In this document: piece after piece, positions 4,479 to 40,112 of the stretch | Layout: each line of letters starts with the position of its first letter | Position numbering within the stretch: position 1 is the first letter of the stretch | Assembly (NCBI RefSeq): GCF_006385135.1 | Contig: NZ_CP041025.1 | Span: forward strand, 3,069,501 to 3,133,500 | Reading direction: 5' to 3' | Source of the DNA: Paremcibacter congregatus | GTDB taxonomy: Bacteria; Pseudomonadota; Alphaproteobacteria; Sphingomonadales; Emcibacteraceae | Length of the DNA stretch: 64,000 nt | Position numbers and translations under genes: made by a program | Notes under the pieces: generated by a model | The model's database searches: none | What the model was told of the DNA's origin: nothing | Seen by the model: the letters and a program-made list of their open reading frames with translations, nothing else

Positions 4479-4506
4479 TTGCCGTATATATTTAATTATA
4501 TATACT
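4479..4506 (+). promoter_or_regulatory. sigma-70-type promoter of the csgG-like operon
   Basis: TTGCCG (4479-4484), a 16-bp spacer, and TATACT (4501-4506) form a good housekeeping-type promoter about 90 nt before the start of the CsgG-like gene. Confidence 0.5.
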
Positions 4507-4596
4507 GAAACCTAAGTAAGTGTTGGGGTTAGTATCTACCATAATAGTAAAAAGCAGCTATCTCTAACAAAATTAATATGCATTGTGGAGATACCT

Positions 4597-5523
4597 ATGC
4601 GCCATAAAAGATACACCTTTCGCGCTATAATCGTGGCACTTTCGTTACTATTGATTTCACCTATATCCTCTTCTTTCGCTGAAACCCAACAGATAGCAAA
4701 GCCATCTGGGAAGAAGCTAAAGTTGAAAGTTGCCATTGGTCGATTCACAAACGAGACTAATTATGGCAAGAGCCTTTTGCGGGACAACGAGCTTGACCCG
4801 CTTGGCAAACAAGCCGCAGATATTCTCACAGCTTATCTGACTAAATCAGAAAGCTTTCTTATATTCGAACGACCCGACCTTAACAAAATAATGAAAGAAC
4901 AAAAACATACCGGTGGGTCCAATATCATCGGTGTTGATACCCTTATCGTCGGCTCTGTCATTGAATTTGGTCGTTCAACGGATGGTAAAAGAGGTATCTT
5001 TAATAAAAAGAAAGTTCAAAAAGCACATGCTAAGGTAGCCATTCGCCTAGTCGATGTAAGAACCGGACTGGTATTTCATTCCGCAACTGGTTCTGGAGAA
5101 GCTACAACAGCCACATCAACCGTCCTTGGGGTAGGCAGTACTGCAAAGTATGATGCATCTCTCAATGACAAGGCAATTTCAATCGCGATTGAAGATCTAA
5201 TCGAAGAACTGGTGACGCAGCTCTCTGGTCGCACCTGGAAAACGGACATCCTAAAAGTCGCGGGAACGACCGCTTATATTTCCGGGGGAAAAAGGCAAGG
5301 ATTGAAAATAGGTGATACCCTCATTGTCATGAAGCAAGGCGAGGTAATCACCAGCAATCAATCAGGCTTTGATATTACTCTGCCGGCCGAAAAAATTGGT
5401 GAATTGAAAGTAGTCTCTCTTTTTGGAGACAATGAGACCACTGAAGGTGCCGTCACTAAAATCATTTCCGGTACACTTACTGAAGGACGTCCTGAGGGCC
5501 TCTTTGTAACAATTGAAAAATAA
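4597..5523 (+). CDS. CsgG/HfaB-like outer-membrane assembly protein
   Basis: A 308-residue CsgG-family protein. CsgG-type proteins form outer-membrane secretion channels or related periplasmic scaffolds. Seen are a signal peptide ending near SSSFA, the family strand KVAIGRFTNET, then AADILTAYLTKSESFLIFERPDLNKIMKEQK, typical of the CsgG N-terminal region, and VKVAIRLVDVRTGLVFHSATGSGEA. The signal has no lipobox Cys, unlike the E. coli lipoprotein CsgG. A GTG lies 12 nt upstream in frame, but GTGGAG then acts as the ribosome site for the ATG at 4597, so that start is preferred. It heads an operon with three lipoproteins. Composition is AT-richer than in the neighbours. The transported or anchored substrate is unknown. 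Confidence 0.8.
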   Translation: MRHKRYTFRAIIVALSLLLISPISSSFAETQQIAKPSGKKLKLKVAIGRFTNETNYGKSLLRDNELDPLGKQAADILTAYLTKSESFLIFERPDLNKIMKEQKHTGGSNIIGVDTLIVGSVIEFGRSTDGKRGIFNKKKVQKAHAKVAIRLVDVRTGLVFHSATGSGEATTATSTVLGVGSTAKYDASLNDKAISIAIEDLIEELVTQLSGRTWKTDILKVAGTTAYISGGKRQGLKIGDTLIVMKQGEVITSNQSGFDITLPAEKIGELKVVSLFGDNETTEGAVTKIISGTLTEGRPEGLFVTIEK

Positions 5524-5535
5524 TAGGGGCATATT

Positions 5536-5832
5536 ATGAGACAACTTTTTATCATCACTTTACTCACTTTATTGTCTGCTTGCGGCAGCATGCCCAAACA
5601 TGCAGATATAAGGTCTGATGACCGTCCAACCATATATATTGACAAATCCGGAATCGGATCAGAGATTCATATAGATGGACAATATTTGGGGCTTGTAAAC
5701 AAAGACCGTCAAACTTTTGCTACGACGCCAGGCAAACATGACATTAAGATCATTTCACCTTCTGGGACAATTACCAAAAAAACAATTTTTGTTCAGGGTA
5801 ATACCAGAAGAGAAATAACACCAAATCAATAA
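5536..5832 (+). CDS. small PEGA-like lipoprotein
   Basis: A 98-residue predicted lipoprotein. The signal MRQLFIITLLTLLSAC ends in an LSAC lipobox. The mature part, with IHIDGQYLGLVNKDRQTFATTPGKHDIKI, has the pattern of a PEGA domain: a short beta unit with a G-x-x-x-G turn and P-G-x-H near its end. It starts 12 nt after the csgG-like stop behind an AGGGG ribosome site and is AT-rich like the rest of the operon. The usual csgG/DUF4810/DUF799 set does not, as far as I know, include this gene, so it is an extra member. Function unknown; probably periplasmic and membrane-anchored. Confidence 0.7.
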   Translation: MRQLFIITLLTLLSACGSMPKHADIRSDDRPTIYIDKSGIGSEIHIDGQYLGLVNKDRQTFATTPGKHDIKIISPSGTITKKTIFVQGNTRREITPNQ

Positions 5833-29825: not shown

Positions 29826-31823
29826 TTACCGGGCAATGCTTAGATAGTGTAAATGGCGGTTATACTGGTTCAGAACTTCATGAATGATCTGCTCCCGGTT
29901 ATAGCCGTAAATATCGTAATCCTGCCCCCCATCAGACAGATAAACCTCGGCGCGGAAGTATTTCTCATCTTCCTTATCGCCAGCCTCTTCCCCATCTTCC
30001 AAATTCGCCCCGCTCAGTGCAAAGACCGGCGTCTTATGAGAAATGGGCACGATCGCAAAACGGAATTCCGGCTCATCCTCATGCAGGATTGTCAGATCCG
30101 CCCCGTCGCCGCTCATCTTCGCCTGAGCCGCATTGTCATGCGCCTGGATTTCCTTCATCACATCCAGCAGAGCCGGACGCGCCGTATCATTGATAAACTG
30201 CCTGATCTGCGTGCTGTCGGGATGAGCCAGAATGGAATGCAGCCGCAGCCGCCAGGGCATATTGACTCCGCCACCAATAATATCCGGTGCGACATCGGCG
30301 CCTTTTGCTTTGCGCGCCTCCATAGACAAGCCCCGCAGCAGACCGGCAATAGACAGGATAATCACAAATGTGAACGGCAAAGCCGTCGCCACCGTCGCCG
30401 CCTGCAAAGCCCCCAGCCCCCCGGCCAAAAGCAGAGTCGCCGCCACAAGACCCTCGGCCACAGCCCAGAAAACCCGTTGCCACACCGGTGTTTTTGTCGA
30501 GCCGCCCGCGGTAATGATATCGATCACCAGGGACCCGCTATCGGACGAGGTGACAAAAAACGTAATGACCAGAATAATCCCCAGGAAAGAAGTAATCCCC
30601 GGCATTGGCAACTGTTCCAACATGACAAACAGCGCGACCGGCATATTTTCAGACACCATGGCGACAATATCACCGGCGCCCGATCCAATAAAATATAACG
30701 CCGTATTACCAAAGGCCGTCAGCCAGAAAAAACACATCAGGGTCGGAACAAAAAGAACGCCCAGAACAAATTCTCGTATCGTCCGCCCGCGAGAGATCCG
30801 GGCAATAAACATGCCGACGAAAGGTGACCAGCTGATCCACCAGCCCCAATAAAAAATGGTCCAGTCTCCGACCCAGCTGCTGTCAGGATCATAGGCCCCG
30901 ACATTGAGCCCCCGGTCCACCATTACCGCAAGATAATTCCCCAGATTTTCCGTGAAAGAGCTAAAAATCAACACCGTAGGCCCCAACACCACAACAAAGA
31001 CCAGCAGACACAGCGCAAGGATCAGATTGAGTTCAGATAAACGCTTGATCCCCGCATCAAGCCCCGCCACCACAGATGCCGTCGCCAATACCGTAATCCC
31101 GCCGATCAGCAGAACCTGAATGGTGACACTGACCTCAATATCAAACAGGTAATGCAATCCCGCATTGACCTGATTGACACCAAATCCCAGAGAGGTCGCA
31201 ACCCCGAACAGAGTCCCGAGCACGGCGAACACATCCACCGCATGCCCTATCGGCCCATAAATACGGTCACCAATCAACGGATATAACGCCGACCGGATGG
31301 TCAACGGCAGATTATGACGGAAACCGAAATAGGCCAGACATAACCCGATCATCGCATATACCGCCCAGCCATGCAGCCCCCAATGCAGGAAGGTGACCTG
31401 CATCGCCTGACTGGCCAAAGCCTGATGCCCCACGGCATCACCAGGCGGAGCCATATAATGCATCACCGGTTCGGCAACAGAGAAAAACAGCAACCCGATC
31501 CCCATACCGGCCGAAAATAACATCGCCACCCAACTGGCGAAACTGAACCGGGGAGTTTCGTGATCCGCCCCGAGTTTGATCGCGCCAAAGCGGGAAAAGG
31601 CGATCCCCAGAGCCACCAGCAAAAACCCGACAACAGACAAGGCATACAGCCACCCAAAGGTCTGGGTGACCCACATATTGAGATGCTTAAAGAAAGGCGC
31701 GGCCCAGGCGGGGAACAGAACCACAGACAGAACAATCAAAAAAACCGCCACCGCGGAAGGAATGAATACAGCAGGCAATATCCCCTTGCGCAATTGCAGC
31801 GACAACCGATTAGCCTCTTCCAC
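29826..31823 (-). CDS. BCCT family transporter (choline/betaine-type)
   Basis: A 665-residue betaine/carnitine/choline transporter with 12 membrane helices and a long cytoplasmic C-terminal domain (~residues 515-665), as in BetT and other osmoregulated members. Seen are ASWVAMLFSAGMGIGLLFFS, the glycine-rich helix of the family, then GWWISWSPFVGMFIARISRGRT with the conserved Trp motif and loop. The substrate is probably a compatible solute or its precursor, moved with Na+ or H+. It starts at a GTG (31823). It is divergent from a MarR-type gene, which may regulate it. Confidence 0.88.
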   Translation of the reverse strand: MEEANRLSLQLRKGILPAVFIPSAVAVFLIVLSVVLFPAWAAPFFKHLNMWVTQTFGWLYALSVVGFLLVALGIAFSRFGAIKLGADHETPRFSFASWVAMLFSAGMGIGLLFFSVAEPVMHYMAPPGDAVGHQALASQAMQVTFLHWGLHGWAVYAMIGLCLAYFGFRHNLPLTIRSALYPLIGDRIYGPIGHAVDVFAVLGTLFGVATSLGFGVNQVNAGLHYLFDIEVSVTIQVLLIGGITVLATASVVAGLDAGIKRLSELNLILALCLLVFVVVLGPTVLIFSSFTENLGNYLAVMVDRGLNVGAYDPDSSWVGDWTIFYWGWWISWSPFVGMFIARISRGRTIREFVLGVLFVPTLMCFFWLTAFGNTALYFIGSGAGDIVAMVSENMPVALFVMLEQLPMPGITSFLGIILVITFFVTSSDSGSLVIDIITAGGSTKTPVWQRVFWAVAEGLVAATLLLAGGLGALQAATVATALPFTFVIILSIAGLLRGLSMEARKAKGADVAPDIIGGGVNMPWRLRLHSILAHPDSTQIRQFINDTARPALLDVMKEIQAHDNAAQAKMSGDGADLTILHEDEPEFRFAIVPISHKTPVFALSGANLEDGEEAGDKEDEKYFRAEVYLSDGGQDYDIYGYNREQIIHEVLNQYNRHLHYLSIAR

Positions 31824-32073
31824 TCACTTCATCCTTAATATACACGAACCATATCCGGCGCCGCATACTTTGTTTGAACTCTAAACACATAAATCAATTT
31901 ACTTTTATTTAGTGTTCTAAATGTATTGCTTGTTTTTTTCAAGGAAATTCACGATTTCCGACGCCAGCGCCGCCCGCCCCGCCCGCACGGTGGACAATAA
32001 AAACATGTTGAGCTTCGCGGGAATTGTTGTAGCTTGGTCAGCACAATGACGCTTGAGAGGACAAGAGACCGTT

Positions 32074-32553
32074 ATGAGTGACTATGATGAAATACTGATT
32101 TCCATCCGGCGTATTATGCGGGCCGTTGATCTGCAATCCAAGCGCCTGATGAAATCATCCGGCCTGACCGCGCCACAGCTTGTCCTGATGCAGTCTCTGC
32201 GGCGGGAAGGCCATATGTCGCCCAGCGCCCTGGCCCGCGACGTCTCCCTGTCGCAAGCAACCGTGACCTCTATCCTCGACCGGCTTGAGAAAGCCGGCTA
32301 CAGCCGTCGCGACCGCAGCGAAACCGACAAACGCATCGTCTATGCCTGCCTGACCGCGGAAGGACTGAAAAAACTTGAAGAAGCCCCGGAACTGCTGCAG
32401 AGCGGCTTTCTGCGTGAATACCGCAAGCTGGAAGAATGGGAACGCACCCAGTTGATATCCAGCCTGCAGCGGGTCGCCACCATGATGGACGCCGAAGATC
32501 TTGACGCCTCGCCCATTCTGGAAGTCGGCGATTTGCAGGTCGACAAGAAATAA
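32074..32553 (+). CDS. MarR family transcriptional regulator
   Basis: A 159-residue MarR-type regulator. Seen are LTAPQLVLMQSLRREGHMSP, the helix-turn-helix SALARDVSLSQATVTSILDRL and the wing GYSRRDRSETDKRIVYACLTAEG, here RDRSETDKRIVYACLT. An in-frame TTG at 32053 is less likely than the ATG at 32074, which has a purine-rich AAGAGA upstream. It is divergent from the BCCT transporter across about 250 bp. It may control that transporter or the oxygenase downstream, whose leader has a perfect inverted repeat. The effector is unknown. Confidence 0.87.
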   Translation: MSDYDEILISIRRIMRAVDLQSKRLMKSSGLTAPQLVLMQSLRREGHMSPSALARDVSLSQATVTSILDRLEKAGYSRRDRSETDKRIVYACLTAEGLKKLEEAPELLQSGFLREYRKLEEWERTQLISSLQRVATMMDAEDLDASPILEVGDLQVDKK

Positions 32554-32589
32554 AGCTGTACCCGGCACACATATCTGGTAAAATGCGGC

Positions 32590-32609
32590 GGTACGAAATT
32601 GTTCGTACC
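32590..32609. promoter_or_regulatory. 20-bp inverted repeat before the 2OG oxygenase gene
   Basis: GGTACGAA-ATTG-TTCGTACC is a perfect inverted repeat between the MarR gene and the oxygenase gene. It has no T tract, so it looks like an operator rather than a terminator. It lies about 70 nt before the ATG at 32680. Confidence 0.5.
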
Positions 32610-32679
32610 TCAATGCGAGCAACAGCCTCATGCCTTATCCCACGACACACCGCCGTTTATATGTAGTCCTGACCTAAGC

Positions 32680-33333
32680 ATGCGCCCCTCACATCGTGGG
32701 AACGGCCCACACCGCCCCGAACCAGACGCCGGTCTCGACTACCGCGGCCTGCTCGGTCATAATGCCCCACCGCTGGTTTATGCGGCGGCGACCTACCCGG
32801 ACGCCCTGTCTCCGGAAGAATGCCAACAGATCATCGCCCATATCGACAGTCAGGATCTCCGCCGGGGCCGTCTCGCCGGCGGCCTGAAAGCGCCGCTGAT
32901 CCGTTCCGTTGCCTCGGAATGGCTTGATGAACATCAAATTCCCTGGTTGACCGAACGCATCGTCAAATATGTCGCCCGCGCCAACAGCAGCAACTTCCCG
33001 TTCGACCTTCTCGGGTTTGATGAAGGCTTTCAGGTGCTGAAATATTCCGGCGACGCCCTGTCCGGGCCCGATTTTTATGACTGGCACATCGACATGGGCC
33101 ACTCCGGCGCCAGCCAGAGCCGCAAATTATCGGTGCTGATCCAGTTGAGCAAGCCGGACACGTATCAGGGCGGCGCACTGGAAGTCAATTTTGACGGCAC
33201 CGCCATCCCCCTTGGCACCGCCCAGGGCACCCTGTGCGTCATCCCGAGCTTCACCCTTCACCGGGTATGCCCGGTCACCGCCGGACGGCGCTACTCTCTC
33301 GCCACCTGGGTGCATGGGCCAACATTCAAGTAA
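32680..33333 (+). CDS. 2-oxoglutarate/Fe(II)-dependent oxygenase (prolyl 4-hydroxylase-like)
   Basis: A ~217-residue member of the 2OG-Fe(II) oxygenase superfamily, prolyl-4-hydroxylase subgroup. The facial triad is visible: H and D in DWHIDMGHSG, distal H in TLHRVCPVTAGRR, with the Arg of GRRYSL binding 2-oxoglutarate. Double-stranded-helix strands LSVLIQLSKPDTYQGGALEV and SLATWVHGPTF surround them. Relatives hydroxylate proline, other residues or small molecules; the substrate cannot be read from the sequence. A start at TTG 32599 would extend it, but would place the operator-like palindrome inside the gene; the ATG at 32680 is preferred. Confidence 0.8.
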   Translation: MRPSHRGNGPHRPEPDAGLDYRGLLGHNAPPLVYAAATYPDALSPEECQQIIAHIDSQDLRRGRLAGGLKAPLIRSVASEWLDEHQIPWLTERIVKYVARANSSNFPFDLLGFDEGFQVLKYSGDALSGPDFYDWHIDMGHSGASQSRKLSVLIQLSKPDTYQGGALEVNFDGTAIPLGTAQGTLCVIPSFTLHRVCPVTAGRRYSLATWVHGPTFK

Positions 33334-33612
33334 CTGACTAAGCAACTGACCCATAAGCCGGGCCCGCGACATCCCGGCTGTCAGGTTTCTTTACACAATT
33401 AAATATCCCTAATATATCAAGCCAAGCTCCTGATAAATAACATATAAACAGAATACTCCATAAGCTCGCGCCCGACGCCTTCCCGCGCCGTTCCCCGATC
33501 TGCGCCAAAATGATCCAGAGAGTCGGGAATCTTTACAGTTTAGACCGCCTTCGCCGCCGCCCCGTGCCTTCTCACCAGAATAATCACCGTTTTTTCAAGG
33601 CCTTATACAAAA
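33334..33612. other. intergenic region before the PEP-CTERM gene
   Basis: About 280 bp without a credible gene. It lies upstream of a sigma-54-type promoter and would hold the activator sites if that promoter is used. No clear repeat was seen in it. Confidence 0.4.
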
Positions 33613-33628
33613 TGGCATCTTAATTGCA
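33613..33628 (+). promoter_or_regulatory. sigma-54-type (-24/-12) promoter of the PEP-CTERM gene
   Basis: TGGCATCTTAATTGCA aligns with TGGCACG-N4-TTGCA, with the GG and GC dinucleotides at the required spacing and two mismatches. It lies 64 nt upstream of the start codon at 33693. PEP-CTERM genes are known to depend on RpoN and PrsK/PrsR in some bacteria; rpoN itself is in this window. Confidence 0.6.
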
Positions 33629-33692
33629 AATACAGGGACAAACACAGTATCCCGGCGCACACCCGCCGCATAACATAATAAAGGAAGTATCC

Positions 33693-34274
33693 ATGCTTTT
33701 CAAAACCCTGATCTCCGCCGCTCTGTTGAGTGTCGCCACTCTGGTTCCGGCCCAGGCTCTGCCCGCCATCAATCAGGCCCTGACCGGCACCGCGTCTCAG
33801 TCCTCCACCTATGGTGGACAGCCTGCAGCCTCTCAGGCAGATCACGCCATTGACGGCAATACAAGCGGCGTATGGTCAACCAACAACCCAAGCAACTCCC
33901 TCAACCATACTGGATTTGAGATGAATGCCTGGTGGGAAGTTGACCTCGGCGCGATGATCGCGATTGATGACATCGTCATCTGGAACCGTACAGATTGCTG
34001 TGTCAACCGCCTGAATAACTTCAGCGTTTTCCTGGATGGCGCCCTGATCGGCGCGTATAATCAACAGAACGGCCCGACCCCGTCCTGGAGCCTGAATAAT
34101 GTCGGCCAGACCGGCCAGGTGGTCCGCGTTCAGTTGAACGACCGCGACTATCTGCATCTGGCGGAAGTTCAGGTTTTCGGCACCGTTGCCGCCGTTCCAG
34201 CCCCCGGGGCGCTCGGCCTGATGGGTCTTGGCCTGATGGGTCTCGGCCTGGTGGCCCGTCGTCGCCGCCCGTAA
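33693..34274 (+). CDS. PEP-CTERM-type exported protein with discoidin-like domain
   Basis: A 193-residue exported protein. The signal is MLFKTLISAALLSVATLVPAQA split as MLFKTLISAALLS and VATLVPAQA. Residues ~30-165 resemble an F5/8 type C (discoidin) domain: TASQSSTYGG, AIDGNTSGVWSTN, WWEVDLGAMIAIDDIVIWNR, and LHLAEVQVFG at the end. The C terminus VPAPGALGLMGLGLMGLGLV plus ARRRRP is a sorting signal of the PEP-CTERM type (VPAPGA variant): motif, helix, basic cluster. It would be processed by an exosortase, which is not in this window. AAGGAAG before the ATG at 33693 decides the start. It is a single gene with a sigma-54-type promoter and two hairpins behind. Confidence 0.85.
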   Translation: MLFKTLISAALLSVATLVPAQALPAINQALTGTASQSSTYGGQPAASQADHAIDGNTSGVWSTNNPSNSLNHTGFEMNAWWEVDLGAMIAIDDIVIWNRTDCCVNRLNNFSVFLDGALIGAYNQQNGPTPSWSLNNVGQTGQVVRVQLNDRDYLHLAEVQVFGTVAAVPAPGALGLMGLGLMGLGLVARRRRP

Positions 34275-34289
34275 CAGAAGTGCATAGCC

Positions 34290-34360
34290 GTCAGGCGGCC
34301 CGTTTACGGAAGCCGCCTGACGCATCCTCAAAGCCCCGATCATCTGGTCGGGGCTTTCTT
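34290..34360 (+). terminator. double hairpin terminator after the PEP-CTERM gene
   Basis: GTCAGGCGGC (34290-34299) pairs with GCCGCCTGAC (34312-34321). A second stem AAAGCCCCGA / TCGGGGCTTT (34330-34356) is followed by a T-rich tail and is the likely terminator. Confidence 0.8.
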
Positions 34361-34400
34361 TTATGGCCAACGCCGCCATCTTGCCCGTAACGCATATTTT

Positions 34401-34429
34401 TTGATGCATTTTCACGTTATTTGTGATAT
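34401..34429 (+). promoter_or_regulatory. promoter of the Xre/RES toxin-antitoxin operon
   Basis: TTGATG (34401-34406), a 17-bp spacer and TGATAT (34424-34429). TTTATGC occurs twice just downstream, 12 bp apart, which may be an autoregulatory site of the antitoxin. Confidence 0.45.
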
Positions 34430-34470
34430 ATGATGTTTATGCAACATTTTATGCTCCAGAGGATATACAA

Positions 34471-34827
34471 ATGACCGCCCTCGCGCTGAAAGAAACCACC
34501 GATGACGTTGTTCTGGCAAAGGCCGTGTTGAAAACAGCCAAGGCGCTGGGCCTGACACAGGAAGAGCTCGGTCAGATCCTCGGCCGCGACCGCACCTCCA
34601 TTGCCCGCGGGCTCAACCCGTCCAGCAAGGCGGGGGAACTCGCGCTGTGTCTGATCCGCTGTTACCGGGCGCTGTTTGTCGTCGTCGGCGGCGAGGCCGG
34701 GGCGATCAAACACTGGTTCTCCACCCAGAACCACCATACCCGGGGCGTGCCCAAGGAACAGGCCAAGACCATTCAGGGGCTTGTCCATATTCTTGAATAT
34801 CTGGACGCCATTCGTGGAAAAATATAG
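34471..34827 (+). CDS. Xre/MbcA/ParS-type antitoxin
   Basis: A 118-residue antitoxin of the Xre-type that pairs with RES toxins. Residues ~15-60 form a helix-turn-helix (KTAKALGLTQEELGQILG, then RDRTSIARGLNPSSKAG). Residues ~60-118 form the ParS/MbcA toxin-binding domain (LCLIRCYRALFVVVGG, AIKHWFSTQNHHTRGVPKEQ, VHILEYLDAIRGKI). The start at 34471 is chosen because AGAGGATA lies just upstream; an extended frame from 34423 overlaps the promoter. Its stop overlaps the toxin start by 14 nt. Antitoxins of this kind neutralise the toxin and repress the operon. Confidence 0.88.
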   Translation: MTALALKETTDDVVLAKAVLKTAKALGLTQEELGQILGRDRTSIARGLNPSSKAGELALCLIRCYRALFVVVGGEAGAIKHWFSTQNHHTRGVPKEQAKTIQGLVHILEYLDAIRGKI

Positions 34828-35599
34828 CCTTCCCGCACCAGACCGGATCAAAGCCGCGATCACCCCGGACATCCACGGCCTCGTCTGGCGGGTGGTGGAA
34901 AGCCAGGAACAGGTCGCCACGCTGGATCTGGTCGAGACACTGGAAGAACAGGCCCTGCTGGAAAAACTGCTGGAGGAGTCCAAACCGCCGCTGCCCGACG
35001 GCTGCGCAGGTCTGGATTATCTGCTGGCCACGCCGTTTCGCTACCCGCCGCTAAAATGGGGTTCGCGCTTTGGCAGCCCGTATGAGCCCAGTCTTTTTTA
35101 TGGCGCGGCGCAGATCCCGACGGCGCTGGCGGAAACCGCTTACTATCGGGTTTTATTCTGGACCGGCATGGCGACGCCGCCGCCGTCCGGCGCGCTCAAG
35201 ACACAGCATACGGTCTTCTCGGTCCCCTACCGATGCGCCGCCGGCCTGTCGTTAAACGCCGCCCCGTTTGAGGAGTGTCAGGACCTGCTGCGCCATCCGA
35301 CAGACTATGGCGCGACGCAATATCTCGGCGCGCGCTTAAGAGCGCTCGGCGTTGATGGCTTTACCTTCGTCTCCGCCCGCTGCCCGGACAGGGGGCTCAA
35401 TATCGCGCTTTTCACCCCGACGGCGCTGGCCGCGAAACGGCCCCGGGAAAAACAGACCTGGCTCTGTGAAACCTCGGCCCGGCATGTTATGTTCAGCGGC
35501 CCGGAACGGGGACAAGGACAGGGCCAATTGCTGAAATTTGACGGTGAAGATTTCCGGATCGCCGCCGAAGCCGTCCCCCCGGCCCTCCCGCCGCAATGA
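34814..35599 (+). CDS. RES-domain toxin (NAD+-degrading type)
   Basis: A 261-residue RES-family toxin. Studied members (MbcT, Res) break down NAD+ by phosphorolysis or glycohydrolysis in an ADP-ribosyltransferase-like fold. Visible family blocks are GLVWRVVESQEQ, RYPPLKWGSRFGSPYEPSLF with the conserved Arg, TALAETAYYR with the conserved Glu, and DGFTFVSARCPDRGLNIALF, which carries the region of the conserved Ser. Translation starts at the GTG 34814 inside the end of the antitoxin gene, in the +1 frame, which implies coupling. At ~260 residues it is longer than minimal RES toxins, with an N-terminal ~65-residue part that may be extra. Confidence 0.85.
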   Translation: MEKYSLPAPDRIKAAITPDIHGLVWRVVESQEQVATLDLVETLEEQALLEKLLEESKPPLPDGCAGLDYLLATPFRYPPLKWGSRFGSPYEPSLFYGAAQIPTALAETAYYRVLFWTGMATPPPSGALKTQHTVFSVPYRCAAGLSLNAAPFEECQDLLRHPTDYGATQYLGARLRALGVDGFTFVSARCPDRGLNIALFTPTALAAKRPREKQTWLCETSARHVMFSGPERGQGQGQLLKFDGEDFRIAAEAVPPALPPQ

Positions 35600-35647
35600 C
35601 CCCCGTCCCCGCCGAAATCCCCCCGAGAGAAAGAAAGAAAGAATAGA

Positions 35648-36001
35648 ATGATCCAGTTTCTGATCCACTACGGCCTGCATTTTCTCGCCCCCGGGCTGAT
35701 CGCGTGGATTTTCTTCCCGCAGAGCTGGAAAAAGGCCTGGATCATCATGCTGGCCACGATGCTGGTCGATCTGGATCACCTGCTCGCCACGCCTCTGTTT
35801 GACCCCGCGCGATGCAGCATCGGCCATCACCCGCTGCATTCCGGTCCCGCCATCGGGCTCTATCTTCTGCTGCTGGCCGCGACGCTGGTCCCGCCGCTCC
35901 GCCGGGCCGTCCCCGCCCGCCTGATCCCCCTGAGCCAAATGATCCTGCTCGGCCTGCTGTTCCATATGCTGACCGATTATCAGGATTGCCTCTGGATGTA
36001 A
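35648..36001 (+). CDS. DUF6122-type small membrane protein
   Basis: A 117-residue membrane protein with about three or four helices. It starts IQFLIHYGLHFLAPGLIAW, has WIIMLATMLVDLDHLLATPLF with a D-x-D-H motif, then a GHHPLHSGPAIGLYLLLL segment, and ends HMLTDYQDCLWM. The conserved His and Asp at membrane edges (HYGLHF, DLDH, GHHPLHS, DYQDC) resemble membrane metal-dependent hydrolases such as the YdjM/LexA-induced family, and I associate it with DUF6122. A purine-rich GAGAGAAAGAAAGAA precedes the ATG. It lies between the toxin-antitoxin pair and a palindromic repeat. Function unknown. Confidence 0.65.
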   Translation: MIQFLIHYGLHFLAPGLIAWIFFPQSWKKAWIIMLATMLVDLDHLLATPLFDPARCSIGHHPLHSGPAIGLYLLLLAATLVPPLRRAVPARLIPLSQMILLGLLFHMLTDYQDCLWM

Positions 36002-36447
36002 CCTTGTCGCGCCGGACGGGTGGGCACACCCCTTCCCCCCCCACCTCGTCATTACCCGACTTGATCGGGTAATCCAAGCAGGCCTCACCAAAGGACTAGA
36101 TTACCCGATCAAGTCGGGTAATGACGGCGGAAAAGGTATGAAGCGTGTAAATTGTTGTGAAAATTCCGTAATTCCGTAATTTAGCAGGGTACAACCACAC
36201 CTCTCTAGTCGTAAAAACTCCTTGACTTGCAACTCAACAATACGGACAGTAACCAGAATAGGCTTAAGAGGGGATTATCGACCCAAAGCGGACTTTAAAC
36301 ACATAAGAAAACCTAACTATATACAGCGTAAAAAAGTCAAAATTTCAATCAATACGACAGAAAAGCACTTGAAACAAAAGCTCCCATTCCTTTCTAGGAA
36401 GAGTGCGTTACAAGTAATAAATCAAAAATTTGAGGTAAACAGTCACT
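36002..36447. other. intergenic accessory region, AT-rich in its second half
   Basis: It contains the nested palindromic repeat (36047-36126), then AT-rich DNA with a short tandem duplication AATTCCGT-AATTCCGT near 36165. A frame of 84 codons from a TTG near 36222 has no ribosome site and no family resemblance, and is not called. Confidence 0.4.
36047..36126. repeat. nested palindromic intergenic repeat
   Basis: A perfect 28-bp inverted repeat (arms 36047-36074 and 36099-36126) with a 24-nt loop. Each arm is itself a palindrome, TTACCCGA-CTTGA-TCGGGTAA. This form recalls the many GGGAT/ATCCC-type palindromic repeats scattered in alphaproteobacterial intergenic regions. It can fold as one long hairpin or two short ones. 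Confidence 0.85.
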
Positions 36448-37920
36448 ATGATAACGAAATCACTCGGAGTGACTGAAACCGAGCGTGTACTCGCAGAGTT
36501 CTGTGAGCGTTCCTTTCTTAAACTCTGGAGTTACCCCAACCCATTCAAGGACGACGGCCATGAGCTATGTGATCTCCTCGCTGTATTCGGTGACTACGTC
36601 TTCATTTTTTTTGATCGCGAAAACCAGCTTCCCGAAGCACCTAAAAAAGATCCGCAAATCCTCTGGGATCGATGGAAGCGCAAAGTAATTGATCGCCAAG
36701 TCAAGACGGCTAAGGGTGCAGAGCGATACATCCGAAGCGGGCGGTCTATCTTTCTCGATGCGAAGGGAACAACGCACTTTCCACTTGAAATCAACCCGAA
36801 GAAGTCAATTATTCACAAGATCATTGTCGCGCACGGAGCGAAGGAAGCCTGCGTTCAAGCCTCAGATCAAAATATCTATGGAAGTCTTGCGATCGCCTAT
36901 AGGGAAACAAAAAGTGACCAAACACACCCCTTTCACGTCGAGGTTGATAAGCAAGACCCCATTCATATTTTCGACGGCCATAATATCTCGATTGTATTGG
37001 GTGAACTAGATACGGTTACCGACTTCTCAAGGTATCTCGACGAAAAGCTACGCGCCATAGAGAAGTTTGATTCGTTGGTATATTGCGGTGAGGAAGACTT
37101 GCTCGGACACTATCTCCTCAACTATGACAAGGATACTGAACAACACATCATTGGTACGAAACGTGACGATGTGAATTGCGTGCTGATCGGTGAAGGTGAG
37201 TGGCACGATTTCATAAATACCGATCTCTACAAAAACACCAAGAAAGAAGATCGTATTTCCTATTACTGGGATGAGCTAATTCAGCGAACTTGCCAAAATG
37301 CCTTGAACGGAGATCTTGGGGGGAACTCGGACCTTTTGCGTGGAGAGAGTGCAATATTCGAGATGGTGAAGGAGCCACGCTTTATACGCCGTGCGCTTAC
37401 TAACAGGATCAAGCAAGCTATCATTAATTTTCCCGACCACTCAGAACAGTTCACTCGCCACGTGACCTTTTTTCCGTCTCATCTTCCGAGTGTTGGCTAT
37501 GTGTTTTTCCAGCTCAGGGTTCCAGCGGATTTCCGGAAAGAATCCGACTACCTAGACAAGCGGAGAACGCTACTGGAAATTGCGTGTGGCGCAGCAAAGA
37601 ACAAGTTTCCTCATCTGACCAAGGTTATCGGTATTGGGATGGATGCTCCCAAATTCGCGGGTGGCACAAATTCGGAAGACTTCGTTCTTCTGCCCTGTGA
37701 GACTTGGGCTGACGACATGCGCGTGTATTACGAAGAACTGAACCAAGAATGGAATTTTTTTGGAACGCCACAGCTTGAGCAATACAATGAGCACGTCACG
37801 CAGTTTGTTCCACCATCTGCCACTACTGCACGAGCCATCCGACCAAACCTCAAGGTGGGACGCAATCAGCCGTGCCCATGCGGATCAGGTAAAAAGTACA
37901 AGAAGTGCCATGGGGCCTGA
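36448..37920 (+). CDS. uncharacterised protein with C-terminal SEC-C motif (possible nuclease)
   Basis: A 490-residue protein without an established function that I can name. The last 20 residues, [19 protein letters not shown], are a textbook SEC-C zinc motif (C-P-C-G-S-x8-C-H), found at the end of SecA and of many unrelated proteins. The N-terminal ~60 residues have [19 protein letters not shown], then [19 protein letters not shown] plus RENQ: a helix with Glu, then Asp and a hydrophobic strand ending in D-R-E. That order recalls a PD-(D/E)xK-type nuclease core, with the usual Lys not obvious. Base and codon composition are visibly AT-richer than around it, suggesting transfer. It lies between a palindromic repeat and an XRE gene. 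A defence role is a hypothesis. Confidence 0.7.
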
Positions 37921-37953
37921 TCTCGCTCAATATGCTCACTTTAGGCCATCAAG

Positions 37954-37977
37954 GTCCGCTTTTGGCCGAAAGCGGAC
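37954..37977 (+). terminator. hairpin after the SEC-C gene
   Basis: GTCCGCTTT (37954-37962) pairs with AAAGCGGAC (37969-37977) around TGGCCG, about 35 nt after the stop. A T tract is lacking, so it may be a palindromic repeat rather than a true terminator. Confidence 0.45.
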
Positions 37978-38083
37978 ACCGGGGATATATAAATTCTTGT
38001 GAAAATCATTATCCATATCAATGCTTCTATAATTTCACATTACAGCTTGGTAGATTTCCTAATCCTATTTGTAAAATCCGATT

Positions 38084-38329
38084 TTAGACTTTCAAGCGCA
38101 GCCCCAAGCCACCAGTTGTCGTTTCTCCCTTGGCAAGGAAAATGATGCCTGCGGCTTCTATGGCTTGCTTGATAGCTGCCAGGTTTCCGCTGCGGGGAGT
38201 CCGTGCGCCTTTTTCAAAGTCAGATAGCGTTTTAACGGCAACCCCTGCGGACTTCGCAAGCCCCCCCTGTGACATGTTCAATAAAGCGCGGGCGGCGCGA
38301 CATTGTGCTGCGGTAATATCTGTCGTCAA
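38084..38329 (-). CDS. XRE-family helix-turn-helix regulator
   Basis: An 81-residue Cro/CI-type DNA-binding protein. It has ITAAQCRAARALLNMSQGGL, then AKSAGVAVKTLSDFEKGART, the full five-helix HTH_3 pattern, and a short tail (IIFLAKGETTTGGLGLRL) of the kind found in many alphaproteobacterial solo XRE proteins. The start is a TTG (38329); no ATG is in frame upstream. A perfect palindrome lies 40 nt upstream, a likely own operator. It is convergent with the SEC-C gene and divergent from a short, probably broken frame. It may regulate either neighbour or only itself. Confidence 0.85.
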   Translation of the reverse strand: MTTDITAAQCRAARALLNMSQGGLAKSAGVAVKTLSDFEKGARTPRSGNLAAIKQAIEAAGIIFLAKGETTTGGLGLRLKV

Positions 38330-38368
38330 AATATTATACTTTCGCGCTTGTAATTCCCAATAAAATTT

Positions 38369-38387
38369 GTTACTTATTATAAGTAAC
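38369..38387. promoter_or_regulatory. perfect palindrome, candidate XRE operator
   Basis: GTTACTTAT-T-ATAAGTAAC, a perfect 9-1-9 palindrome between the XRE gene (start 38329, minus) and the frame at 38459 (plus). Size and place fit a Cro/CI-type dimer site controlling one or both directions. Confidence 0.65.
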
Positions 38388-38458
38388 TAAATCGACCCGA
38401 AAAGGTGCGCCAACACCTTATCGAGTCTAACCACACCCAACCTTGAAAGGAGGCTGGC

Positions 38459-38653
38459 ATGGCTAACTCACGTTTTAGCATATCTTATCCCGTCTTGTTA
38501 ACCAATAGCTTATCCAATTTCTCCTTTTTTCCGTACAACATACCTGCTCAGCGGTCAGAAGTCTGGATGCCCTCCTTCGAGGGCATGACGGTGGAGCGGG
38601 GGTATGGTGCGACAGAGAAGGCGACAGCTTTCGACAAAGGAGAGCTGAGATGA
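38459..38653 (+). pseudogene. short frame with perfect ribosome site, probably a truncated gene
   Basis: AAAGGAGG (38446-38453) lies 5 nt before an ATG, an excellent start, divergent from the XRE gene across its palindromic operator. The frame encodes only 64 residues (starting MANSRFSISYPVLL) and its second half is made of a palindromic intergenic repeat (38567-38586). The most likely reading is a gene whose 3' part was replaced by repeat insertion or deletion. A real small protein cannot be excluded. The N-terminal part resembles nothing I know. Confidence 0.4.
38567..38586. repeat. short palindromic repeat
   Basis: ATGCCCTC-CTTC-GAGGGCAT, a perfect 8-bp stem with a CTTC loop, flanked by GG and GACGG. 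It is of the interspersed palindromic kind, distinct from the repeat at 36047-36126. Confidence 0.6.
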
Positions 38654-38670
38654 CAAAGGAGACCCGAGAT
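38633..38670 (+). repeat. 19-bp tandem duplication of a ribosome site and start codon
   Basis: GACAAAGGAGAGCTGAGAT (38633-38651) is followed directly by GACAAAGGAGACCCGAGAT (38652-38670), two mismatches. Each copy brings an AAAGGAG and an ATG. The first ATG (38650) opens a 17-codon frame overlapping the real gene start at 38669. Confidence 0.75.
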
Positions 38671-39400
38671 GAAGACGGATATGTCCGCCCTGCCCCCCGC
38701 TGAGCGGGTGCAATTGCGCAAGATCACGGCGGCGCTGGTCGAGAGCTATCGCGCGGCGGCGAAACGTGGCCGCAGCCAGAAACAGCGTCAGGCCCAGATC
38801 ATCGCCGTGATCCTGTGCCCCGCCCCGAAAACCCCTAAATCCTCCACGCCCCCCGCCGCCAAACCCTCCGCGCCTTCCCGGTCCCCGTCCCTGCTGATCC
38901 AGGTCAACCGCCGTCTGCCGAAAGACCTGTGGCGCAGCGCGACGGCACTTCCCCCCGCCCACCGGGTGGCAACTCACCGGGTCGAGACTCTCCGGGTGGA
39001 GACATTGCGCCGCTGTAACCGGCTGCTGCGGCGGGCGGACGCGCGGGAGGGCGGCGGTGCGGACAGTTTTATGGCCGCTGTGCGTGATCGGGGCATTTTG
39101 CTCTATCACCGGGACGGCAGCCCGCTGAACCGGCTGCTCACCCCCGCGCAGGCGGCGGACCAGGCGGCGGAGCGGGCGCTGCTGCATCTGCGGCGGCATA
39201 TCTTCGCGCTGGAGGAGCCGACCGATGATCTGAGCGCGCTGGGGGAGCTGCTGCGCTCTCTCGGCTGGATCGACGAGGACGCGCCGCGCGGCGTGCATCT
39301 GCTCGGCCGCACGGTGGAGGCCCGCGCCGAGGTGATCCGCGATATATTCCGCCGGATGGTCGCGCGGCTGCCCCGGCCGTCCGCCTCCGCCCCGCCTTAA
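38669..39400 (+). CDS. Arg/Ala-rich protein of unknown function
   Basis: A 243-residue soluble, strongly basic protein with no family I can name. The N-terminal ~45 residues form a helix (VQLRKITAALVESYRAAAKR). A Pro/Ser-rich linker with APKTPKSSTPPAAKPSAPSR is at ~50-75. The rest is helical, with an internal duplication VETLRVETLRR and TPAQAADQAAERALLHLRR. It ends Pro/Ala/Ser-rich. Codon use is extremely GC-rich, in contrast with the AT-rich genes just upstream. AAAGGAGACCCGAG precedes the ATG, within a 19-bp tandem duplication. Whether it belongs with the XRE locus or the conserved rnd block is not clear. Confidence 0.6.
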   Translation: MKTDMSALPPAERVQLRKITAALVESYRAAAKRGRSQKQRQAQIIAVILCPAPKTPKSSTPPAAKPSAPSRSPSLLIQVNRRLPKDLWRSATALPPAHRVATHRVETLRVETLRRCNRLLRRADAREGGGADSFMAAVRDRGILLYHRDGSPLNRLLTPAQAADQAAERALLHLRRHIFALEEPTDDLSALGELLRSLGWIDEDAPRGVHLLGRTVEARAEVIRDIFRRMVARLPRPSASAPP

Positions 39401-39497: not shown

Positions 39498-40112
39498 ATG
39501 TCAATTGAACTGCATCGGGGCGATTTGCCGGACCATGTGAAATTTACCGGCTCCGTGGCGATCGATACGGAAACCATGGGGCTTAACCCGCACCGCGACC
39601 GGCTGTGCCTGATCCAGCTGTCCAGCGGCGACGGCACCGCCCATCTGGTGCAGATCGCCCAGGGCCAGACCAAGGCGCCGAACCTGAAAGCCATGCTGGA
39701 AGACCATCATCTGACCAAGATTTTCCATTACGCCCGGTTTGACGTGGCGGTGCTCAACAAATATCTCGGCGCCCGGGTGCGGCCGGTCTATTGCACCAAG
39801 ATCGCCTCGCGCCTGGTGCGGACCTATACGGACCGGCATGGCCTGAAAGACCTGTGTCGGGAACTGATCGGTGTTGATCTGTCAAAGAAACAGCAGAGTT
39901 CCGACTGGGGCGCTGACGAGCTGTCCAACGAACAACGGGAATATGCCGCCTCTGACGTGCTGCATCTGCATAAACTGATGAACCGGCTGAATGTGATGCT
40001 CGACCGGTCGGGCCGCCGCGACCTGGCCCAGTCCTGCTTTGATTTTCTCCCGACCCGCACCGATCTCGATCTGCTCGGCTGGCCGGATGAAGATATCTTC
40101 GCCCATAGTTAA
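39498..40112 (+). CDS. rnd: ribonuclease D-type 3'-5' exonuclease
   Basis: A 204-residue DEDD-family 3'-5' exonuclease, the short alphaproteobacterial form of RNase D that lacks HRDC domains. The DEDDy residues are visible: D and E in GSVAIDTETMGLNP (Exo I), D in KIFHYARFDVAVL (Exo II), and Y and D in EQREYAASDVLHLHKL (Exo III). In E. coli RNase D trims tRNA 3' ends. The gene precedes lptC-lptA-lptB-rpoN, a conserved alphaproteobacterial order. A ~300-nt gap before lptC contains a possible promoter. Confidence 0.9.
   Translation: MSIELHRGDLPDHVKFTGSVAIDTETMGLNPHRDRLCLIQLSSGDGTAHLVQIAQGQTKAPNLKAMLEDHHLTKIFHYARFDVAVLNKYLGARVRPVYCTKIASRLVRTYTDRHGLKDLCRELIGVDLSKKQQSSDWGADELSNEQREYAASDVLHLHKLMNRLNVMLDRSGRRDLAQSCFDFLPTRTDLDLLGWPDEDIFAHS

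Follow-up and report, generated by a model that had tools for sequence, protein, structure and literature searches.

The described proteins closest to the one reported here are archaeal Holliday-junction resolvases, McrC, AF1548 and the nuclease domains of Can2 and Cdn1 (some of these being what we take the matching chains to be), with which its N-terminal part is predicted to share a fold (Z 4.7-8.8). A Glu on the first helix and an Asp before the second long strand are common to both. The family differs from these domains in overall sequence (5-14% identity), in having Ser or Phe at the [D/E] position and Lys or Arg at the Lys position, in its C-terminal part and in having no recurring partner. 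In restriction enzymes of the Cfr10I/NgoMIV type, Ser replaces the acid of [D/E]xK and the acid is supplied from elsewhere. No sequence match between these enzymes and the family was found; the family has no recurring methyltransferase partner and, in the clade of our protein, Phe rather than Ser. By genomic place, the nearest described case is the cargo of P4-like satellites: at the psu-int hotspot presented by Rousset et al. 2022 (PMC9122126), the system carried differs from satellite to satellite, and seven of those that were cloned gave phage resistance. Our family gene occupies the same place in seven E. coli satellites; the term 'SEC-C' is absent from the main text of that paper. At the other end of the protein, the SEC-C motif of SecA is described as binding SecB, with similar motifs in YecA and YchJ (PMC8076867). 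A CxCx8CH tail is common to these three proteins and ours, and nothing beyond the tail (residues 457-490 at most).

The protein is encoded in a 64,000-nucleotide stretch of the genome of Paremcibacter congregatus, hereafter the window. The gene and its parts are as follows.

36448-37920, + strand: family gene encoding a 490-amino-acid protein (P0001), an open reading frame from ATG to TGA
36448-37125, + strand: predicted PD-(D/E)XK-like nuclease domain, residues ~1-226 (AlphaFold2 model, realigned PDB chains and alignment)
36481-36483, + strand: codon of the invariant E12 (this and the next three by residue-to-base arithmetic)
36562-36564, + strand: codon of the invariant E39
36571-36573, + strand: codon of the invariant D42
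36616-36618, + strand: codon of the K/R position 57, Arg in the window protein
37126-37800, + strand: C-terminal region, residues ~227-451, with no assigned fold (alignment and model)
37861-37914, + strand: SEC-C metal-binding motif, residues 472-489 (PF02810)

The gene stands apart from its surroundings in composition, as the first-pass annotation had claimed: its GC content is 47.8% and its GC3 0.518, compared to 50.8-70.5% and 0.537-0.836 in 14 neighbouring genes. The protein belongs to PHROG 18195 (E 7.2e-41 over residues 2-489, profile positions 5-487 of 489), a catalogue entry of unassigned function that carries neither mechanism nor context, and an open-access literature search found no paper on this protein family. 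Employing the SEC-C-free body of the protein in a pattern-based scan of genome_contigs, which reaches close relatives only, we found 13 loci with 45-90% identity over the best piece. Eleven of them aligned across at least residues 24-444 at 45-80% identity and the other two partly; three copies (L024, L032 and L033) are interrupted or partial. DNA similarity to the window gene was found in 13 of the 14 relatives compared and was confined to the coding sequence within about 11 bases. Comparison with L021 gave a dN of 0.109 and a dS of 1.43; in comparisons with 8 other relatives, synonymous sites were saturated and dN was 0.16-0.28. The window gene is under purifying selection, synonymous change exceeding replacement change. 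Because of this excess, the conservation among relatives and the confinement of DNA similarity to the coding sequence, we regard it as a real gene beyond chance.

The genome_contigs loci include Methylobacter, Bradyrhizobium, Gallionella, Achromobacter, Janthinobacterium, Desulfobulbus and Chlorobiaceae. Relatives at 65-80% identity come from what we take to be gamma-, beta- and alphaproteobacteria, together with Chlorobiaceae and Desulfobulbus, some loci being metagenome bins of possibly wrong taxonomy (the 'Anaerolineae' copy pairs with Methylobacter in the tree). Presence is sparse. Seven of 289 genomes matched in a class sample, the window's own included and one only at E 7e-4, and 6 of 398 in a phylum sample, again with the window's own. 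Among the other 31 genomes of the taxonomic family, matches lay only at query residues 440-490, inside longer open reading frames, and a profile search of the window's genome and 20 relatives found the full-length gene in the former only. On plasmids, copies were found in 141 of 72,556 records, 105 of which matched 80% or more of the query at a single site, and 91 of the 141 were typed as conjugative. Three members used as tblastn queries found no relative among 50,697 phage records, and a scan of viral contigs with the window protein's own body found none either; a profile scan of the viral contigs gave 27 matches, including one restricted to the tail (L086) and one fragment (L085).

In the window, the gene is one part of a larger variable region (29826-39400), which is flanked by a 3'-5' exonuclease gene (39498-40112). 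In four genus mates, the ~13-14 kb that precede the exonuclease gene contained none of ten proteins tested from this region, and they also differ from mate to mate. The sparse presence, the unshared surroundings and the confinement of DNA similarity to the coding sequence therefore indicate an acquired gene that moves singly. A small DUF6122 gene ends 0.45 kb before it, and an HTH/XRE gene (38084-38329, - strand) follows on the opposite strand; the latter matches the PADLOC model 'Control_protein' at 4.6e-15. Further upstream, overlapping genes for an Xre/MbcA/ParS-type antitoxin and a RES-domain toxin (34423-35599, + strand) form a RES/Xre toxin-antitoxin pair 0.85 kb from the window gene, preceded by a gene whose product combines an F5/8 type C domain and a PEP-CTERM motif (33624-34274, + strand). 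A direct repeat is found on both sides of the gene.

36148-36164, + strand: left copy of the direct repeat (17 nt, 16 of them as in the right copy)
37990-38006, + strand: right copy, 1842 bases downstream of the left

Elsewhere in the 4.19-Mb genome, the repeat pattern is found once with one mismatch and never exactly; its reversed control is found twice when up to one mismatch is allowed. A 16-of-17 pair did not arise in any of 500 dinucleotide shuffles of the two flanks. As a possible insertion footprint the repeat is suggestive only, because its length was chosen after it was seen. A perfect 28-nt inverted repeat (36047-36074 and 36099-36126, 24-nt spacer) is also present, and its core has two further near matches elsewhere in the genome. 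The palindrome GTCCGCTTTTGG/CCGAAAGCGGAC was considered as the end of a mobile unit and rejected; it has one other near copy in the genome and none in the other family loci searched. The palindromic repeat and the XRE gene singled out by the annotation are both present in the window, but they are not conserved companions of the family.

Conservation counts, a tree and an AlphaFold2 model were based on a family alignment, A2, of 45 rows. It contains neither plasmid nor E. coli copies; also omitted are L024, L032, L033, L038, L040, L041 and L085, which are interrupted or partial, L086, which consists of the tail only, and L042, a duplicate. The row of L056 was trimmed to its first start codon and therefore starts past D42. 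The model from the 45 aligned members had a pLDDT of 86.2 and a pTM of 0.85; a structure predicted without an alignment (pLDDT 34) was set aside. In the model, a helix (10-22) is followed by strands 28-30, 43-47 and 50-58, a long helix (69-96) and a strand (121-129), a predicted order of elements that corresponds to the alpha-beta-beta-beta-alpha-beta core of PD-(D/E)XK proteins.

We realigned the 1000 top Foldseek chains using VIA-align 2. Z-scores reached 8.8, with four chains at 8 or above: they were 8.8 for Cdn1, 8.3 for Can2, 8.2 for the small subunit of R.BspD6I, 7.3 for chain M of McrBC, 6.5 for HindIII, 4.7-6.1 for archaeal Holliday-junction resolvases, 4.6 for LmuA and 4.0 for Avs3, values below 8 perhaps reflecting a common arrangement and values of 7-8 being typical of models with no clear match. 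Among the best 50 realigned PDB entries, 38 are presumably PD-(D/E)XK proteins, all aligned within model residues 1-282; the other 12 we take to be nine acetyl-CoA carboxylase entries, YdjA-YdiS, a spliceosome entry and a tRNA splicing endonuclease. Absence of a family from the VIA list was not counted as exclusion. With Foldseek alone, the best E-values were 0.12 in the PDB and 0.009 among viral models, with none at 0.001 or better; PD-(D/E)XK and RecB-type names were frequent among the weak viral matches. Pfam over the 45 members gave no nuclease profile, the matches being SEC-C (in 20) and four single weak ones, including NERD at E 0.094, and the family profile had no match among PDB chains at E 10. 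Because the realigned list is coherent, rather than by virtue of any single Z, a restriction-endonuclease-like, PD-(D/E)XK-like fold is supported for the modelled N-terminal half. The annotation had suggested a PD-(D/E)xK-like nuclease and had named profile search and structure prediction as checks. Its proposal stands as far as the fold goes, by the confident model and the realignment, but Foldseek alone and sequence profiles did not recover it. The C-terminal region (~227-451), in which S271, D275, R311, R314 and R372 are invariant, may be a sensor or activation part; 5o9z was considered as a match to residues 276-448 of this region and, with a Z of 3.9, was too weak to use.

The putative active site departs from the usual one. 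E12, E39 and D42 are invariant in all 44 rows with a residue there, the 45th row starting after the motif. An Asp before or on the second core strand, as expected of PD-(D/E)XK proteins, is provided by D42; [D/E]xK on the next strand was absent from all 45 rows, and therefore we name the family PD-(D/E)XK-like, not a canonical member. At position 55, where the acid of [D/E]xK is usually found, 30 of the 45 rows have Ser and 15 Phe; at position 56, 38 have Asp, 4 Glu and 3 Val; and at position 57, 30 have Lys and 15 Arg. The window protein has Glu12, Asp42, the strand VFIFF and then Asp56-Arg57-Glu58. These are the residues listed in the annotation; its D-R-E does not represent the canonical catalytic order, the conserved set being E12, E39, D42 and K/R57. 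The Phe-Asp-Arg (FDR) form is restricted to one branch of 15 rows (support 100/100), to which the window protein belongs. With Phe at the acid position and Arg in place of Lys, the proteins of this clade could be without catalytic activity. By spacing, E12, D42 and residue 57 fit what we take to be Glu9, Asp33 and Lys48 of the resolvase Hjc, the distance of 15 from D42 to 57 presumably equalling that from Asp33 to Lys48. The alignment with 1gef starts at model residue 8 on chain residue 5, which would place E12 on Glu9 if ungapped. The missing acid may be replaced by the invariant E39. Given Ser or Phe at the acid position, catalysis by the family is putative.

SEC-C is the sole Pfam domain of the 490-residue window protein (E 1.1e-10; 41.6 bits, cut-off 20.4), at the C-terminus, where the annotation had placed it. 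Its pattern, CxCx8C[HC], is a motif and not a whole-protein family. This tail is not shared by the whole family: 20 of the 45 members end in SEC-C, 13 in a Lys/Arg-rich tail (at least 36% Lys/Arg among the last 25 residues) and 12 in neither; nine changes are required on the tree for the three labels, and the close relatives L021 and L022 (80% identity) are without SEC-C. Since it varies in this way among members, the tail is an accessory rather than a fixed part, perhaps one for docking. NCBIfam gave eight matches to the window protein at E up to 1, all within residues 457-490 and below cut-off; one match at 471-488 likewise involved the tail only, and the YecA family had no similarity to the protein beyond the SEC-C tail. 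Matches of the protein in PADLOC cover just residues 450-489, and no described defence protein matches it elsewhere. In RefSeq, all 21 plasmid copies listed and most chromosomal copies of E. coli nevertheless bear the label 'YecA family protein'. In E. coli records such as NZ_CP074001.1, nuclease-like proteins bear this label with a library match in the tail only.

Neighbouring genes were compared with PADLOC models. At least 10 of the 13 genome_contigs loci (L021, L022, L025, L026, L027, L029, L030, L031, L032 and L033) have one or more neighbours with a model match of 1e-15 or better, including Lamassu, type III REase, SIR2-pAgo, Avs2 and AriAB; L030 was counted on the strength of its Lamassu-type genes, which share 95-98% identity with those of L026. 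No PADLOC neighbour was seen at L023, L024 or L028 among the 25 of 79 families listed. As L026/L030 and L025/L033 are pairs, there are about eight independent cases. Weaker signs are an XRE-ImmA-type regulator (RmrA model) next to L022 and a DUF2326 ATPase next to L021. At the Janthinobacterium locus L029, the family copy is preceded by a gene (4501-5628, + strand) for an uncharacterised protein with its own SEC-C near the N-terminus and followed by S8 protease, NACHT-model and trypsin-model genes.

In the sampled genomes, 61 open reading frames around 8 copies gave one Ssp set (L104, where SspC matched and SspA/DndA and SspB were assigned by adjacency) and one methyltransferase match, so that a clear defence system stood in the fetched flank of one of the eight; this sample omits G041, G258 and G259 (short contigs, split or weak matches) of the eleven matching genomes besides the window's own. 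As a control, 104 of 171 open reading frames were used, from 9 of the 16 stretches fetched, in seven of the same eight genomes. They gave 27 PADLOC families, chiefly through one helicase matching several helicase models, mad3 in three open reading frames and single generic models. Since control stretches also give matches, single matches are weak, and the counts set against the control are not a formal enrichment test. By eye, L105 and L111 adjoin apparent housekeeping genes; L109 adjoins apparent relaxase and integrase genes, and some copies lie in chromosomal stretches with no visible element. Satellite, prophage, plasmid and defence-gene contexts are found elsewhere. The link to defence is thus strong in the close clade and on mobile elements, and weak in the distant sampled copies, so the defence role put forward in the annotation agrees with the former contexts but with only one clear case among the eight sampled copies. 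No partner gene recurred within 4 kb in more than 4 of 55 loci. The largest recurring groups (4 of 55 loci) are mostly phage or satellite genes of near-identical elements, and a few others are distant matches (24-36% identity) to integrase-, LysR-, recombinase- or phage-like genes. With no recurring partner, the system, if there is one, consists of a single gene.

In E. coli, the L048 allele matched 21 of 5,426 genomes, always in plasmid-borne copies, and the L046 allele, searched in distant mode, matched 30, with 21 copies on plasmids and 9 on the chromosome; such searches could miss more divergent alleles. The nine chromosomal copies found comprise one in a lambdoid prophage, seven in P4-like satellites and one remnant. 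The prophage copy lies between replication and antitermination genes, flanked by restriction-endonuclease and HEPN genes. In the seven satellites, the interval from the delta/psu genes to the host gene contains no annotated gene other than the family gene; the satellite integrase was found at the opposite end in the three that were fetched far enough, and three of the seven have a delta gene split by an IS66-type element. In the circular form of a P4-like satellite, psu and int lie on either side of this place, which is the hotspot described by Rousset et al. The seven copies look like one lineage, not independent events. The remnant is a fragment followed by IS1 and the same integrase as in the satellites. 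In a satellite-like element of Klebsiella (L046, one of the plasmid copies), with integrase, AlpA, primase-like, capsid, portal and terminase genes and no annotated tail gene in the stretch, the family gene lies between the primase-like and capsid genes. Among the other plasmid copies, L043 is near IetAS genes, L049 near a DUF1837 and DEAD/DEAH pair, which we take to be of the Hachiman type, and L044 ~4.6 kb from a DNA methyltransferase and specificity gene; L048 is on a plasmid typed IncN, and the plasmid stretch around L045 has no obvious defence gene.

What the analysis shows is a conserved open reading frame with a predicted fold, mobile contexts that are in part linked to defence, and no recurring partner. 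On balance, and with moderate confidence, we favour a solitary, mobile, divergent PD-(D/E)XK-fold nuclease with a C-terminal sensor or activation half and a docking tail, acting as a single-gene system against phages (or competitors). The gene would travel as cargo of satellites, prophages, plasmids and defence islands, and its product would stay quiet in uninfected cells. From the fold and the contexts we infer a trigger, a nuclease activity and its substrate, a defence phenotype and a role of the tail: the C-terminal region would sense a phage-encoded signal, the activated protein would cut nucleic acid, probably DNA, and cutting would stop the invading element or the infected cell, the interchangeable tail (SEC-C knuckle or Lys/Arg-rich end) serving as a docking element. 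A protein that keeps the nuclease fold but not catalysis, at least in the FDR clade, and works as a nucleic-acid-binding regulator or competitor, for instance by blocking a phage or plasmid process, is unlikely. It would account for Phe55 and Arg57 in all 15 rows of that fully supported branch; E12, E39 and D42 are, however, invariant in those rows of the clade that extend to them. This and the purifying selection on the gene make lost catalysis less expected, because a dead site should drift. We also think it unlikely that the gene serves the mobile elements themselves in housekeeping or competition not aimed at phages, as a stability, packaging or anti-plasmid nuclease. The many plasmid (141 records) and satellite copies and the position of the Klebsiella copy beside the capsid gene fit such a role, but a neighbour shared by more than 4 of 55 loci is lacking and some chromosomal copies are in stretches where no element is seen by eye.

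A homing endonuclease standing on its own, which spreads selfishly by cutting its target site and copying its gene there, would be a single gene with DNA similarity limited to its coding sequence and could explain the 17-nt repeats on both sides. Such a gene needs a shared target site, whereas the flanks had no DNA similarity in the 13 relatives with a match, and flanking genes recur only in near-identical elements and as a few distant matches; we consider this very improbable. An accessory of the Sec pathway or of chaperones, as the RefSeq label 'YecA family protein' and the likeness of the motif to that of SecA might suggest, is scarcely credible: the NCBIfam matches are below cut-off and confined to the tail, SEC-C is missing from 25 of the 45 members, a nuclease fold is predicted for the body and the distribution is sporadic. 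Within the favoured reading of a solitary anti-phage nuclease, a more specific version is quite improbable as a whole, namely a new immune nuclease held at the translation or export machinery by its swappable tail, with a rebuilt site (E12, E39, D42 and K/R57), and switched on by a nascent or new phage protein.

Prophages, plasmids of clinical Enterobacteriaceae and P4-like satellites, the last at a proven antiviral hotspot, carry a full-length gene family that has no assigned function and is hidden in RefSeq behind names like 'YecA family protein'. The altered active site and the interchangeable tails of this family are relevant to how nuclease folds are re-used. We regard it as an uncharacterised, mobile single-gene family with a nuclease-like predicted fold and an unusual site, and as a candidate anti-phage gene at a known hotspot. 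The family probably protects its carrier against competing phages.
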